IMG/VR virus record: IMGVR_UViG_3300007734_000454
Location: 1 to 21,059 of that record
Origin: a virus
Reading direction: 5' to 3' (one strand)
Length of the DNA: 21,059 nucleotides
Within the stretch, counting starts at the first letter, position 1; every line of letters starts with the position of its first letter. The notes below the pieces were generated by a model. That model searched no databases. It worked only from the letters and a program-made list of their open reading frames with translations, and was not told the origin of the DNA. Positions 1 through 6,756 of this stretch are shown here, in pieces. A program made the position numbers and the translations under genes.

Positions 1-7
1 TTTTCAT
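1..7 (-). CDS. 5' end of a left-arm gene, cut by window edge
   Basis: A minus-strand ATG at positions 7-5 is preceded by GGAGAAGCATC, the Shine-Dalgarno leader used by the other left-arm genes. Only the first two codons (Met-Lys) lie in the window, so the product cannot be described. It is the next gene in the leftward series, separated from the preceding gene by a 106-nt gap full of small inverted repeats. Its leader is the best match in the window (11 bases) to the anti-Shine-Dalgarno segment of the proposed small RNA at 4436-4577. Confidence 0.6.
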
Positions 8-38
8 GATGCTTCTCCAGGTGATTTTGATTTAGTTT

Positions 39-779: not shown

Positions 780-964
780 TTTGCTTCTCCTTTAAATGAC
801 AACACGCTACGGACTTGAAACCCAAGACCGAAGCAGCCCACTATCACGAACGCACAGTACAGCGGTGCTGTACCCCAGATGTCGATCTGGATGAACCCGA
901 ATGCGATCAGGTTGTACTGGCATATAGCCAGAAAGATGTGACTCAGTACTTGCATTGCTTTCAT
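776..964 (-). CDS. Small two-helix membrane protein, 62 aa
   Basis: The protein has two hydrophobic stretches, about residues 6-27 and 33-51, joined by a short IDIWGT turn, and a basic C-terminal tail (VRSVLSFKGEAK). It is therefore probably an inner-membrane hairpin protein. Both ends overlap neighbours by ATGA, and the last codons (KGEAK) encode the ribosome binding site of the next gene. The start at 964 is supported by GGGAGAA upstream. A methionine at codon 4 is an alternative. Possible roles include superinfection exclusion or membrane modification. A holin is also conceivable, but the gene is far from the virion cluster and no lysin is nearby. Confidence 0.75.
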   Translation of the reverse strand: MKAMQVLSHIFLAICQYNLIAFGFIQIDIWGTAPLYCAFVIVGCFGLGFQVRSVLSFKGEAK

Positions 965-1209: not shown

Positions 1210-1421
1210 GTTGCTTCTCCTTTGTTGTTAATCAAATCAAAGTCTTGGTCTAAAACATTCGCGTCTTGCAGCGCAACCTCAATGTTGAACAAAAAGTCAC
1301 TCAACATTTTTGGCATATCCATACCCCCATACGCCCCACGCAACGACTCGACCAGCCTTAAGGCATAGTCAGCGTCGCCCTTGTATGACAAACTTTTCTC
1401 TGATGCAGTTATTAAAATCAT
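1206..1421 (-). CDS. Hypothetical phage protein, 71 aa
   Basis: Not recognised. It is a soluble, mostly helical small protein (DYALRLVESLRG, KMLSDFLFNIEVALQDANVL). Its last codons (DLINNKGEAT) are encoded by a 24-bp sequence that is repeated upstream of its own start, so the gene is bracketed by direct repeats. The ATG is preceded by AACAACAAAGGAGAAAAGAA, a good ribosome site, and its stop overlaps the next ATG. The bracketing suggests it can be gained or lost as a cassette of about 212 bp. Confidence 0.75.
   Translation of the reverse strand: MILITASEKSLSYKGDADYALRLVESLRGAYGGMDMPKMLSDFLFNIEVALQDANVLDQDFDLINNKGEAT
1215..1238. repeat. 24-bp direct repeat, copy 1
   Basis: Read on the minus strand, this runs from GATTTGATTAAC to AAAGGAGAA. 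It encodes DLINNKGE at the 3' end of the 71-aa gene and also carries the ribosome site of the following gene. It is identical over 24 bp to 1427-1450. Confidence 0.85.
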
Positions 1422-1788: not shown

Positions 1789-1819
1789 TTATCTTCTCCT
1801 CATAGGCTAGGGTCGGGAT

Positions 1820-3009: not shown

Positions 3010-3026
3010 AGAGAGAAATTCTCTCT
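3010..3026. repeat. GAGA palindrome, copy C
   Basis: AGAGAGAAATTCTCTCT is a 17-bp palindrome centred on a single A. It begins 3 nt after the stop of the gene at 3030-3266. The outermost pair of the 19-bp consensus is lost. Confidence 0.8.
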
Positions 3027-3029
3027 GGG

Positions 3030-3266
3030 TTAGTACGGCAAGGGTTGTTGCACTGGTGCGCCTTGTGCCTGAACCCATGTGTTGCGTGCTTCAGGTGTAG
3101 TGAAGGCGAGGCTTTCACCGCCGATGATGCCTGCGAGATGGATGACATACTCACGCCATCTTTTGCTACTGCCTTTGCTTGGGTAGTAGTCTTGAACCAC
3201 GAGCAAGCCTTTGGGTGTTGTGACTTGGGTGACTGTGAAAAAGGCACGATACTTGTTGTTACGCAT
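3030..3266 (-). CDS. Hypothetical phage protein, 78 aa
   Basis: Not recognised. It is a basic protein with likely beta strands at the N-terminus (YRAFFTVTQVTTPKGLLVVQDYY), then a Lys/Arg/Ser-rich turn (PSKGSSKRWREYVIHL), and a Pro/Gln-rich C-terminus. The ATG at 3266 follows GTAAGGAGAAACATC. A nearby alternative reading frame on the same strand starts at 3247 but lacks a ribosome site. A 66-nt gap with two hairpins separates it from the upstream gene. GAGA copy C follows its stop almost at once. It is probably co-transcribed with 3333-3551. Confidence 0.7.
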   Translation of the reverse strand: MRNNKYRAFFTVTQVTTPKGLLVVQDYYPSKGSSKRWREYVIHLAGIIGGESLAFTTPEARNTWVQAQGAPVQQPLPY

Positions 3267-3332: not shown

Positions 3333-3551
3333 TTATTCGTTGTCTAAGTTAAGTTCTACGTAGTCAGGCGCATCTTCTCGTTCGAGCACAACCACATCGT
3401 TTCGCTTTGCTGCCAGTCCGATGTAGTTTTTTACCCCGTCAACAAGCACAGCAAATTCTTTGTCGTTCATGTGCCCATCAAGGTTGTTTAGTGTGGCAAC
3501 AAGCGTTAAGTCACCATCGTCACGCATAAAGCCTATTGATACAGTTTTCAT
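3333..3551 (-). CDS. Acidic hypothetical protein, 72 aa
   Basis: Not recognised. It is a small, strongly acidic protein: MKTVSIGFMRDDGDLTLVATLNN at the start looks like a beta hairpin, the middle contains KEFAVLVDGVKNYIGLAAKRN, and the end is EREDAPDYVELNLDNE. No membrane segment or cysteines. The ATG at 3551 has CGGAG eight bases upstream, a weaker site than those of its neighbours. It lies only about 30 nt beyond a strong leftward terminator, leaving no room for a separate promoter. Its expression therefore probably depends on read-through. Confidence 0.7.
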   Translation of the reverse strand: MKTVSIGFMRDDGDLTLVATLNNLDGHMNDKEFAVLVDGVKNYIGLAAKRNDVVVLEREDAPDYVELNLDNE

Positions 3552-3619: not shown

Positions 3620-3638
3620 GAGAGAGAAATTCTCTCTG
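3620..3638. repeat. GAGA palindrome, copy D
   Basis: GAGAGAGAAATTCTCTCTG has 8 paired positions each side and a mismatch at the outermost position. It lies 2 nt beyond the stop of the 152-aa gene and 8 nt before the arms of the terminator. Confidence 0.85.
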
Positions 3639-3640
3639 GA

Positions 3641-4099
3641 TTACTCAAAGGCGATAGAGTCACGCAGTTCAGCAATCAGGGCATCAAACTCTGCCTTGTT
3701 CATGCCAGACGCAATGACCTCGTTCAAGACAGCGTTAAACACTCTGCGTGGTGCAATGACTTTGACTTGACGACCGCTTGAATCAGGCAGTGTTTTCTTA
3801 GCCTTGATTTTCTTAATGTGATAGGCAAAGTCAGAGTAGGCGCGGTCAATGGCCTTGATGTGCTCACGCTTTGCAGTCTTGCCTTTGCCAGTGGCGATGA
3901 CATCCTCAGCGTTCTTGATGCCTTGCCCGATAAGATGGTTCAGCATCCAGCGAGCTTTCAAGTCCTTTTGTTGCTCAGGCGTAGCCTTTGCGTATGCGTC
4001 AGCAAGCGGCTTTGCAGACTCTTGCAACTGCTTGCCTACTTTACCGACAGACTTTGCGAACTCGTCGAATGACATGGTCGTGTTTGCTTTCAGTGACAT
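3641..4099 (-). CDS. Basic helical hypothetical protein, 152 aa
   Basis: Not recognised. The ATG at 4099 (MSLKANTTMSF...) is preferred to an in-frame start at 4162: AAGGAGAAGCACC precedes it, and the longer frame would run through GAGA copy E. The protein is lysine/alanine-rich and helical throughout (FAKSVGKVGKQLQESAKPLADAYAKA; DFAYHIKKIKAKK). Its acidic C-terminal helix is KAEFDALIAELRDSIAFE. There are no cysteines or membrane segments. Composition would suit a nucleoid or DNA-associated protein, but no domain is recognised. It is the first gene of the left arm, behind a candidate extended -10 promoter, so it is probably abundant early in transcription. Confidence 0.8.
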   Translation of the reverse strand: MSLKANTTMSFDEFAKSVGKVGKQLQESAKPLADAYAKATPEQQKDLKARWMLNHLIGQGIKNAEDVIATGKGKTAKREHIKAIDRAYSDFAYHIKKIKAKKTLPDSSGRQVKVIAPRRVFNAVLNEVIASGMNKAEFDALIAELRDSIAFE

Positions 4100-4116
4100 G
4101 GTGCTTCTCCTTGTGT

Positions 4117-4135
4117 GAGAGAGACTTTCTCTCTC
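4117..4135. repeat. GAGA palindrome, copy E
   Basis: GAGAGAGACTTTCTCTCTC has 8-bp arms around CTT. Unlike copies A-D it lies in the 5' leader of a gene, 17 nt upstream of the ATG at 4099 and close to its ribosome site. The centre differs from the other copies while the arms are kept. Confidence 0.85.
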
Positions 4136-4182: not shown

Positions 4183-4435
4183 CGAGGGGTAAGCAGATGG
4201 TTCGTATAGCCCTCTCATAGCGTGAATATCCGAGAACTTTAGACCCCACCCTAGGGGCATCCCCCATATATGTGTGAACGGGTGGCACTTAGCTTGAACA
4301 CTATTCCCCACCAATTCTCAGCACTTCTGTAATACTTAATACTCCAGACTACCCCCCTACAAAGATAATCACCCCCACCATAAAAATTTCTAAAAAATTT
4401 GGAAGAACCCTATGTCAAACGCTAGACATACAGCC
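4183..4435. other. Non-coding strand-switch region, left half
   Basis: About 250 bp without a supported gene between the two arms. It is marked by short C runs, an AAATTT-5-AAATTT repeat (4385-4400) and a perfect inverted repeat TATGTC-8-GACATA (4411-4430). The latter contains a leftward TTGACA (4418-4413), but the hexamer 17 nt on (TTTTAG) is a poor -10. I see no tRNA, origin iterons or attachment site. Confidence 0.5.
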
Positions 4436-4577
4436 ATAAAAAAATCCCCCGGCATTGCTGACGGGGGATTAAACAGTTGGAGCACAACTGAGGAGAAGCA
4501 TCTGAACAACAGTGGAGAGAAGATGGCCAAAGGCCATATTCAACAACAGGGCCAAGGCCCACGGTTGCGCAACTGCT
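4436..4577 (-). ncRNA. Candidate phage small RNA, about 142 nt
   Basis: A minus-strand unit with its own promoter (4585-4613) and terminator (4437-4470) but no convincing ORF. In order, the RNA contains GTTGCGCAAC, a GGGC-CTTG-GCCC hairpin (4549-4560), an ATGGCC-TTT-GGCCAT hairpin (4523-4537), a pyrimidine-rich linker, a CAGTTG-5-CAACTG hairpin (4474-4490) and the terminator hairpin. The linker reads ATCTTCTCTCC, then CTGTTGTT, then GATGCTTCTCCTCA. The last segment is complementary to GGAGAAGCATC before the gene at 1-7, to AGGAGAAGCA before 387-779, 961-1209 and 3641-4099, and to TGAGGAGAAG before 1444-1788. The leaders of the right-arm genes (for example AAGGAGT) match much less. The inference is a trans-acting RNA that blocks ribosome binding on left-arm mRNAs. 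The alternative is a plus-strand minigene using the same bases. Confidence 0.6.
4437..4470 (-). terminator. Strong intrinsic terminator, leftward
   Basis: On the minus strand AATCCCCCG-10-CGGGGGATT forms a 9-bp stem that runs into a tract of seven T. The plus strand reads TTAAAC after the stem, so the element works leftward. Since no leftward protein gene lies to its right, it most simply ends the small RNA. Confidence 0.8.
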
Positions 4578-4579
4578 GA
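4523..4579 (+). CDS. Possible 18-aa minigene (alternative to the RNA)
   Basis: A plus-strand ATG five bases after GTGGAG opens a short frame, MAKGHIQQQGQGPRLRNC. A second ribosome-site-like GAGGAGAAGC lies 31 nt upstream of the ATG. It is listed because the ribosome site is canonical. However, its ATG lies inside a perfect hairpin and no plus-strand promoter is evident upstream. I regard the minus-strand RNA reading as more likely. Confidence 0.15.
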   Translation: MAKGHIQQQGQGPRLRNC

Positions 4580-4592
4580 CAATTAGTATACA
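4565..4592 (+). promoter_or_regulatory. Candidate right-arm promoter
   Basis: TTGCGC and TATACA are separated by 16 nt, and transcription would begin near 4599, about 30 nt before the small terminase gene. The -35 is imperfect. The -10 shares GTATAC with the leftward promoter at 4585-4613, so both could not be occupied at once. Confidence 0.4.
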
Positions 4593-4613
4593 CTCCGCGC
4601 ATCGCAGGTACAA
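4585..4613 (-). promoter_or_regulatory. Small-RNA promoter, leftward sigma70 type
   Basis: The minus strand reads TTGTAC (4613-4608), exactly 17 nt, then TATACT (4590-4585). Transcription would start near 4577, giving an RNA that ends at the T tract around 4437. This is the best -35/-10 pair found in the window. Confidence 0.6.
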
Positions 4614-4628
4614 GGGACTTATGCGCCG

Positions 4629-5228
4629 ATGTTAGACCACCTTATTGATTTTGAACCGGAAGTGAGTGACCACTCTGGTAAACCTACGCCTCTTGAGAAA
4701 GAGCATCCGGCGGATGTGATCGACGCTAAAGTAAACACGGTCGAGTGGCTCAAGGGTCTGGGTGCGGCTGACACACAGACTGTGGTCAACCAAGCGGAAG
4801 TCCAAGCGGCACGCGCATCTTTTACAAATCTCATTTCGTCCGCGCCAAGCGAAATTACCCACGAACATCTTACCCAGATCAAAACGCCAGCCGCTGTTCA
4901 ACATTTGGTCGGTATGCTCACAGCCTACGACTGGGAGTTTGTGCATCAGGCCCGTGAACTCCGTGGCTACACCGTGGCCAAGCTCCTTGAAGAATGCGAG
5001 AACCCCAACGCCAACATCCGCCTGAAGGCGCTGGGCTTGCTGGGCAAGGTAACCGAAGTTGGGCTGTTCACCGACAAGATTGAAATCAAGAAGACCGACC
5101 TGACCGACGAAGAGATCGACCGCAAGCTCAAAGAGAAGCTGGCCAAGTTCATGGGTGTGACAGACGCTGAGCCAATAGAAGACATAGAAGTAAGCACTCC
5201 CTCACCGGCCACAACCGATGAATCTTGA
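4629..5228 (+). CDS. Terminase small subunit (probable), 199 aa
   Basis: It would recognise phage DNA and hand it to the large terminase for packaging. The middle and C-terminal helices (YDWEFVHQARELRGYTVAKLLEE, about 100-122; NIRLKALGLLGKVTEVGLFTDKIEIKK, 129-155) have the pattern found in small terminases of podovirus-like phages. The sequence then ends in an acidic helix (LTDEEIDRKLKEKLAKFM, 158-175) and a disordered tail. The gene sits directly before the large terminase, overlapping it by 11 nt. The start has only a weak AGGGA 11 nt upstream; no better in-frame start exists because a TAG lies at 4584. The assignment rests on position and helix pattern, not on a clear helix-turn-helix. Confidence 0.7.
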   Translation: MLDHLIDFEPEVSDHSGKPTPLEKEHPADVIDAKVNTVEWLKGLGAADTQTVVNQAEVQAARASFTNLISSAPSEITHEHLTQIKTPAAVQHLVGMLTAYDWEFVHQARELRGYTVAKLLEECENPNANIRLKALGLLGKVTEVGLFTDKIEIKKTDLTDEEIDRKLKEKLAKFMGVTDAEPIEDIEVSTPSPATTDES

Positions 5229-6756
5229 AAGTCTAACGTTAAACATTGGGGAAATACAAGCTATTCAGCGTGCTCTCCCCACCATGAGCCTCAAAGAAAA
5301 GATTGAACTCATGGACATGCTTGAGGAGCGCGAGAAGCGGCACACACTGGTGGCTGGGCGCACAGACATAATTAAGTTTGCCTTGCACGTCTACCCCGGA
5401 TTCAAGGTCGGGCCGCACCACAGGAAGCTAGCCAAGATATTTCAGGATGTGATTGCCGGTAAAAAGAAACGCGTCATCATCAATATTGCGCCACGGATGG
5501 GTAAGTCCGAGTTTTCCAGCTATCTGTTCCCCGCGTTCTTCCTAGGTAATTTCCCTGATAAGAAGATCATCATGGGAACGCACACCGCATCGCTGTCCGA
5601 GGACTTCGGACGCAGAGTCAGAAACTTACTGGACGATGAGCAATACCATGAACTCTTTCCTCAAACGCTTATTGCAGACGATCAAAAGGCTGCTGGCAAG
5701 TGGTCTACTGCTGCTGGTGGTCAGTATTATGCTGCCGGTGTTGGCGGTGCTCTGGCTGGTCGGGGAGCTGATCTTTTCGTTATCGACGACCCGCATTCTG
5801 AGCAAGATGTTAAAGCCAATAGCCGACTTGCCTTTGACACCGCGTGGTCGTGGTTCCAGACAGGCCCACTCCAACGACTGATGCCCAACGGGGCAATCAT
5901 TGTCATCATGACGCGCTGGGGGCCATTGGACTTAACAGGTCGCCTCATACAGTACCAAGTCAATAACCCGGACTCACCCCAGTGGGAGATTGTGGAGCTA
6001 CCGGCCATCCTGAACGAAGGCACGGAGAACGAGAAGTCGCTCTGGCCAGAGCAGTGGCCGCTGGCCTCCCTCCAGTCAGCCAAGTCCTCAATGGAGCCAC
6101 GTTACTGGAACGCGCAGTACATGCAGCAGCCGACCAGCGACACGGCGGCGATCATCTCCAGAAAGCACTGGCGCATCTGGCCAAGCGACACCCCCCCTGA
6201 CTGTGAGTACATAATCCAGAGTTGGGACACAGCGCACGAGACAAAGAGCACATCTGACTACAGTGCGTGCACAACTTGGGGCGTGTTTTACAACGAGGAA
6301 GAGAACAGCAAGGCGCAGGTGATACTGCTGGATGCGTTCAAGGACAGGATGCCGTTCCCTGAGTTAAAGCAGTCGGCCTACAAACACTGGCAGGAGTGGG
6401 AGCCGGATGCGTTTATTGTGGAGAAGAAAGCCGCTGGTGCGCCCCTGATACAAGAGCTTCGGGCGATGGGCATCCCGGTGCAGGAATTTACACCCAGCCG
6501 TGGAAACGATAAGATGGTGCGTGTCAACGCCGTGGCCGACATGTTTGCATCCGGCTTGGTGTGGGCACCTGACACACGCTGGGCACGCGAAGTGATTGAA
6601 GAAGTTGCGGCCTTCCCTGTGGGGGAGAACGATGACTATGTGGACACAACCACCCAAGCACTGCTGCGCGTCAGACAAGGCGGCTTCATCAGAATTGACA
6701 CAGATGAGCCAGACGAACCCCGATTTTTCAAGCGCCGTATGGCGGCGTACTACTGA
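5218..6756 (+). CDS. terL: Terminase large subunit, 512 aa
   Basis: The packaging motor ATPase and headful or site-specific nuclease. ATPase motifs: a Walker A-like APRMGKSE (91-98), a TH/S-rich strand (GTHTASLSEDF, 120-130), Walker B LFVIDDP (186-192) and the coupling motif MTRW (231-234). Nuclease domain of RNase H type: SWDTA (D337), FIVEKK (E402) and NDDYVDTTTQ (D472, D473, D476), the expected acidic triad. The length is normal for a complete protein. The first 40 residues form a charged helix typical of subunit contact. It overlaps the small subunit gene by 11 nt, and the portal start follows 6 nt after its stop. The Walker A lacks the first Gly of the classical motif, as is common in terminases. 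Confidence 0.95.
   Translation: MNLESLTLNIGEIQAIQRALPTMSLKEKIELMDMLEEREKRHTLVAGRTDIIKFALHVYPGFKVGPHHRKLAKIFQDVIAGKKKRVIINIAPRMGKSEFSSYLFPAFFLGNFPDKKIIMGTHTASLSEDFGRRVRNLLDDEQYHELFPQTLIADDQKAAGKWSTAAGGQYYAAGVGGALAGRGADLFVIDDPHSEQDVKANSRLAFDTAWSWFQTGPLQRLMPNGAIIVIMTRWGPLDLTGRLIQYQVNNPDSPQWEIVELPAILNEGTENEKSLWPEQWPLASLQSAKSSMEPRYWNAQYMQQPTSDTAAIISRKHWRIWPSDTPPDCEYIIQSWDTAHETKSTSDYSACTTWGVFYNEEENSKAQVILLDAFKDRMPFPELKQSAYKHWQEWEPDAFIVEKKAAGAPLIQELRAMGIPVQEFTPSRGNDKMVRVNAVADMFASGLVWAPDTRWAREVIEEVAAFPVGENDDYVDTTTQALLRVRQGGFIRIDTDEPDEPRFFKRRMAAYY

Follow-up and report, generated by a model that had tools for sequence, protein, structure and literature searches.

Genome context of the predicted small RNA gene

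The 21-kb window (the whole stretch of DNA analysed, 21,059 nt) is a piece of an uncultured tailed phage. Its left arm is made up of small leftward genes (minus strand), and its right arm carries, in rightward orientation, a TerS-like gene, TerL, the portal gene and head genes. Between the two arms lies, on the minus strand, a predicted small RNA gene, which starts about 50 nt before TerS on the opposite strand. The features of this region are:

5218..6756, plus strand: large terminase subunit
4629..5228, plus strand: putative small terminase subunit (TerS), so named for its position; constant neighbour of the small RNA gene in relatives
4608..4613, minus strand: -35 element TTGTAC of the small RNA promoter, identified from sequence (TTGTAC or TTGAAC in most relatives)
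4585..4590, minus strand: -10 element TATACT, with a 17-bp spacer (TATACT or TACACT in most relatives)
4438..4578, minus strand: small RNA of about 141 nt, with its start inferred from the -10 element and its end placed at the T-run
4505..4541, minus strand: insertion particular to this phage that contains the GGCCTTTGGCC hairpin plus a second CU segment, ATCTTCTCTCC; missing in relatives L002 and L005
4492..4502, minus strand: seed GAUGCUUCUCC (also written GATGCTTCTCC), anti-Shine-Dalgarno, CU-rich, predicted to be mostly unpaired
4474..4490, minus strand: hairpin CAGUUG-UGCUC-CAACUG directly 3' of the seed; lineages differ in stem sequence
4438..4472, minus strand: strong intrinsic terminator made up of AAUCCCCCG...CGGGGGAUU and a run of 7 U

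The promoter is sigma-70-like (TTGTAC-17-TATACT, minus strand 4613-4585), and the region 4430-4576 is predicted to fold more stably than shuffled sequences (z = -3.3). The poly-U terminator is compatible with an Hfq-dependent small RNA and indicates nothing more, there being no Hfq binding data. The gene in the TerS place had no PHROG match of its own, and an Rfam search of the window at gathering scores gave no match.

A sequence-only reading had proposed that the minus-strand RNA carries an anti-Shine-Dalgarno segment, and this held (GATGCTTCTCC, plus-strand coordinates 4492-4502). It had also pointed to a second segment beside the seed and to a CTGTTGTT complementary to AACAAC of two leaders; for neither is a role supported. 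The second segment, ATCTTCTCTCC, is indeed present (plus-strand coordinates 4514-4524), but it lies inside the insertion of about 37 nt that is absent from the nearest relatives, L002 and L005, and CTGTTGTT is confined to the close subgroup of the window.

The insertion (4505-4541, 37 nt), which contains the GGCCTTTGGCC hairpin, is flanked by AACAAC repeats. Comparable hairpin inserts occur at varying positions of the 5' part in the RNAs of other relatives and resemble a small mobile repeat. Just past the terminator is an operator-like palindrome, TGTCTAGCGTTTGACA (4413-4428), with TGTCnAACGTTnGACA-like counterparts in many relatives; it might be a repressor site for the left arm.

Conservation of the RNA unit in related phages

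Searches of IMG/VR with TerS and TerL returned some 300 contigs as relatives. About 260 of the related IMG/VR contigs have the RNA unit upstream of TerS; they contribute 160 distinct RNA sequences. A regular expression matched 258 of 402 loci (one match being spurious); many of the others were short, were truncated before the site, or were without the unit. The phages carrying the RNA form a large, uncultured, mostly freshwater group. The order of the unit in relatives is promoter, a variable 5' part (often with GGCC-hairpin inserts), UUGCUUCUCCU, hairpin, and terminator. A trans-acting base-pairing small RNA is expected to have its own promoter and intrinsic terminator, and both are predicted in all 160 distinct sequences.

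The hairpins and the terminator vary across relatives while the anti-Shine-Dalgarno core is mostly constant: in 29 diverse sequences the seed core is invariant or nearly so, with variable flanks. Over 159 predicted folds, the unpaired fraction is 0.61 for the seed (0.72 for its last 7 nt) versus 0.39 for the whole RNA. The hairpin that follows the seed folds better than shuffles (mean z of -1.49), with 29 different stem strands. Its conservation was scored sequence by sequence instead of by alignment; MAFFT with RNAalifold gave no consensus pairs for the 3' module because neither the sequence nor the offset of the stems is constant, and the model derived from that alignment is one of sequence only. 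The seed extends to CAU in 75 of the 160 sequences (e.g., GGAGAAGCAAAUG) and therefore mirrors the Shine-Dalgarno sequence through the start codon.

Zero-gap matches to the B-seed pattern (L204, L208, L220, and similar; seed classes are defined below) were excluded, being without promoter or terminator and seemingly part of protein-coding sequence of other phages. A similar scan of 9-kb stretches did not detect the unit in the deposited relatives DSL-LC04, HTVC027P, HTVC023P, 023Pt_psg01, or Pag-Yong1.

Complementarity between seed and leaders in the window

Each of the 11 left-arm leaders was compared with the complement of GATGCTTCTCC, the longest exact match being taken as the measure. The predicted target leaders with the longest matches are:

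7..18, minus strand: GGAGAAGCATC, gene whose start codon (ATG) is at 4-6, 11 nt
780..792, minus strand: AGGAGAAGCA, gene 387-779, 10 nt
1210..1222, minus strand: AGGAGAAGCA, gene 961-1209, 10 nt
1789..1803, minus strand: TGAGGAGAAG, gene 1444-1788, 10 nt
4100..4112, minus strand: AGGAGAAGCA, gene 3641-4099, 10 nt; kept in the orthologues of L002, L021, and L036

The match is 8 nt for gene 114-386, 7 nt for genes 1206-1421 and 3030-3266, and 4-6 nt for genes 776-964, 1892-2635, and 3333-3551. Thus, the matches claimed in the sequence-only reading all held, namely 11 bases for the leader at 8-18 (GGAGAAGCATC), 10 bases for the same four genes as listed above, and 7-8 bases for 114-386, 1206-1421, and 3030-3266. 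Its statement that right-arm leaders match less held as well: the mean match is 8.0 nt in the left arm versus 4.3 nt in the right arm, and duplexes with the seed average -14.8 kcal/mol for left-arm leaders (-7.6 for shuffles) versus -8.7 kcal/mol for right-arm leaders (-7.3 for shuffles).

A match of at least 10 nt is found in five of the 11 left-arm leaders. When the GGAG core (the Shine-Dalgarno core) was kept fixed and the remainder of the leaders shuffled, none of 2000 shuffles reached five (mean 0.017), so that the match exceeds what a shared Shine-Dalgarno sequence provides. An exposed seed complementary to targets encoded elsewhere, as required of a trans-acting small RNA, is thus present. 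Assignment as a cis-antisense phage RNA of the OOP/sar type was considered and rejected, since the predicted left-arm targets lie elsewhere and on the same strand as the RNA.

Covariation of seed and leaders

Two main seeds occur, A (GCUUCUCC) and B (GCUUUCUCC, with one extra U). In a tree built on TerS from 149 phages, the seed class has changed at least three times, with B forming three clades. Across some 30 phages, each compared with its own RNA, the 1024 possible 5-mers following GGAG were ranked by frequency. The 5-mer complementary to the RNA comes first in the left-arm leaders of both seed classes (AAGCA, 46/402; AAAGC, 64/283) and only 26th and 20th in right-arm leaders.

The leader words differ between the classes. 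Left-arm leaders of seed-A phages have 111 GGAGAAGC to 69 GGAGAAAGC, those of seed-B phages 15 to 133. The fraction of GGAGAAAGC, the B-type word, is 0.88-0.94 in four B lineages and does not exceed 0.67 in any of 10 A lineages (p = 0.001 by permutation; p = 0.003 by the Mann-Whitney test); the four B lineages include a sister pair for which one seed change is common to both. The same shift is seen within orthologous families: for six gene families with informative leaders in both seed classes, counts by lineage are 18:2 (A) versus 1:13 (B), with a stratified exact p = 7e-6. Control words that are not complementary to the seed (GGAGAAAC, GGAGAAGA) show no shift with seed class, and in the right arm GGAGAAAGC and GGAGAAGC are both uncommon.

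The covariation expected between a trans-acting small RNA and its targets is thus met, within the limit set by three independent seed changes. On average 1.9 of three pairs agreed in a pairs test and almost none disagreed; with only three independent seed changes, this strict test cannot reach significance. The B-type leader is still frequent in seed-A phages (69 vs. 111), which may mean that a bulge is tolerated in the pairing or that some of these leaders are not targets. Full 10-nt matches are few in many seed-A genomes. With the rarer seeds GCUCUCUCC and GCUUCUCUCC, leaders are mostly still A-type and can pair only with a bulge of 1-2 nt, and the UUACUUCUCC group has almost no matching leaders in the sequence examined. 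That the rarest seeds are not clearly tracked by leader changes is the main gap in the covariation evidence.

A separate case is a right-arm gene of relatives coding for 64 aa (e.g., G002 46253-46447), whose leader GGAGAAGCC is common to seed-A and seed-B phages and independent of the seed.

Predicted target genes across the family

The most consistent target families code for a protein of 134-152 aa with weak similarity to Mu Gam, a 519-aa SNF2/DEAD helicase, and a protein of about 100 aa. These three core families sit in a replication module together with DNA polymerase A, a PD-(D/E)XK exonuclease, and a primase-helicase-like protein. Retention of the pairing in relatives, a check proposed in the sequence-only reading, is confirmed for the gene set and for these core families. 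Individual small left-arm genes, such as those of the window, acquire and lose the seed match, and most of the window's own predicted targets have no match in their orthologues.

Comparison with known systems

The weak Rfam match is to RF02278 ("Betaproteobacteria toxic small RNA"), considered here together with S17 of Bordetella pertussis. The score is 26.3 bits in the window and 24.4-27 bits in relatives; since this is about half of the gathering cut-off of 50 bits, the phage RNA is not assigned to RF02278. The likeness is one of layout only (a short single-stranded CU-rich site, a hairpin, and an intrinsic terminator), and the seeds differ. In the absence of S17, which is cellular and Hfq-dependent, 70 genes with complementarity to it in or close to the ribosome site are raised, and S17 represses translation of the fusions tested (PMC11722255). 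The targets of RF02278/S17 are bacterial, e.g., transporters and regulators, whereas the predicted targets of the phage RNA are its own covarying genes.

T4 RegA, a 122-aa protein, represses about 30 phage mRNAs at AU-rich sites in the translation start region (PMC3014915). By analogy of function only, it resembles the phage RNA as a phage product occupying the translation starts of many phage mRNAs; however, RegA is a protein repressor, whereas the phage RNA would repress by base pairing. The phage small RNAs VpdS, PreS, 24B_1, OOP, and sas are also phage-encoded, some acting on phage mRNAs, and they are either cis-antisense or act on no more than a few targets, in phage or host (reviewed in PMC12197685). 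In the passages of that review considered here, we found none that matches a large set of its own phage's ribosome sites with family-wide covariation.

Proposed function

The sequence comparisons above show a conserved RNA unit, exposure of its seed (in predicted folds), the complementarity, the left-arm bias, and the seed-leader covariation. We consider it very likely that this RNA is a trans-acting small RNA which represses translation of many replication-side phage genes. The proposal of the sequence-only reading that a trans-acting RNA is aimed with its anti-Shine-Dalgarno segment at left-arm genes is thus supported by unit conservation, left-arm specificity, and covariation in three clades. 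That it "shuts off" these genes remains an inference: there are no expression data, and it is only inferred that the RNA is transcribed, that the outcome is repression, when it would act, and that help of the Hfq type is involved.

According to the proposed mechanism, leftward transcription of the RNA would start at its own promoter, located where the two arms meet. Its exposed UUGCUUCUCCU would pair with the Shine-Dalgarno region of a group of left-arm mRNAs, and in many lineages this pairing would reach through the start codon; it would keep the 30S ribosome off and lower their translation. The regulon would consist of a few core genes from the replication and recombination side (for the SNF2-type helicase, the Mu Gam-like DNA-end protein, and the protein of about 100 aa) plus fast-changing small early-type genes. 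Either a damping of early genes or an early-to-late switch may result.

A bolder reading, which we consider likely, is that one small RNA serves as a global translational repressor of replication-side genes throughout a phage family, as an RNA analogue of T4 RegA, its regulon being rewritten upon seed mutation. If true, a widespread group of uncultured phages would possess a post-transcriptional switch acting on a whole regulon, whereas most phage small RNAs known so far have one or few targets. The seed variants would be a natural record of a pairing regulator evolving together with many targets.

Alternative explanations

The alternative that survives best is that the RNA mainly blocks host translation via the ribosome sites of host mRNAs, the left-arm leaders being a mere resemblance or a sponge. 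In its favour, any AGGAG leader pairs over 5-7 nt, the weak Rfam match is to a family (RF02278) whose overexpression slows growth, and a sponge alone would also yield seed-leader covariation. However, it predicts neither that left-arm leaders track the extra seed U, which lies outside the Shine-Dalgarno core, in three clades, nor that right-arm leaders fail to follow the seed. We regard it as unlikely, but it cannot be fully excluded.

Less plausible still is the absence of any regulation: left-arm leaders would owe a shared stock ribosome site to common descent or to copying, and the RNA gene would merely carry an old inverted copy. Leaders do resemble each other within a genome, and independent seed changes are few. 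Against this stand the family-wide retention of promoter, hairpin, and terminator while stem sequences change, the shift of the leaders of unrelated genes in step with the seed, and the position of AAGCA/AAAGC outside the ribosome-pairing core.

Another origin of the match, a ribosome site on the plus strand that serves a minigene or leader peptide before TerS, would have refuted the sequence-only reading but is very unlikely. The complement does read like GGAGAAGCAAATG (plus-strand Shine-Dalgarno sequence and ATG) in about half of the relatives, but the other half have no ATG there; the plus-strand peptides are mostly short (median 15.5 aa; six of 80 ORFs run to 210-226 aa), with no relationship from lineage to lineage; the promoter and the terminator are minus-strand elements; and the covariation with left-arm leaders would be unexplained.

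Additional observations

The spaces between left-arm genes contain five nearly identical palindromes, AGAGAGAA-N-TTCTCTCT (62-86, 1855-1873, 3010-3026, 3621-3637, and 4117-4135), one of them immediately upstream of the leader of 3641-4099. A role in mRNA processing or stability is possible, though this is a guess.

The host search found a related TerL in just two MAG contigs, and phage matches point to mixed hosts. One of the two, L156, belongs to a Chitinophagales MAG and has, besides the TerL relative, a distant variant of the RNA (seed GCGUUUCUCC); it is likely a phage contig that was binned with this MAG.
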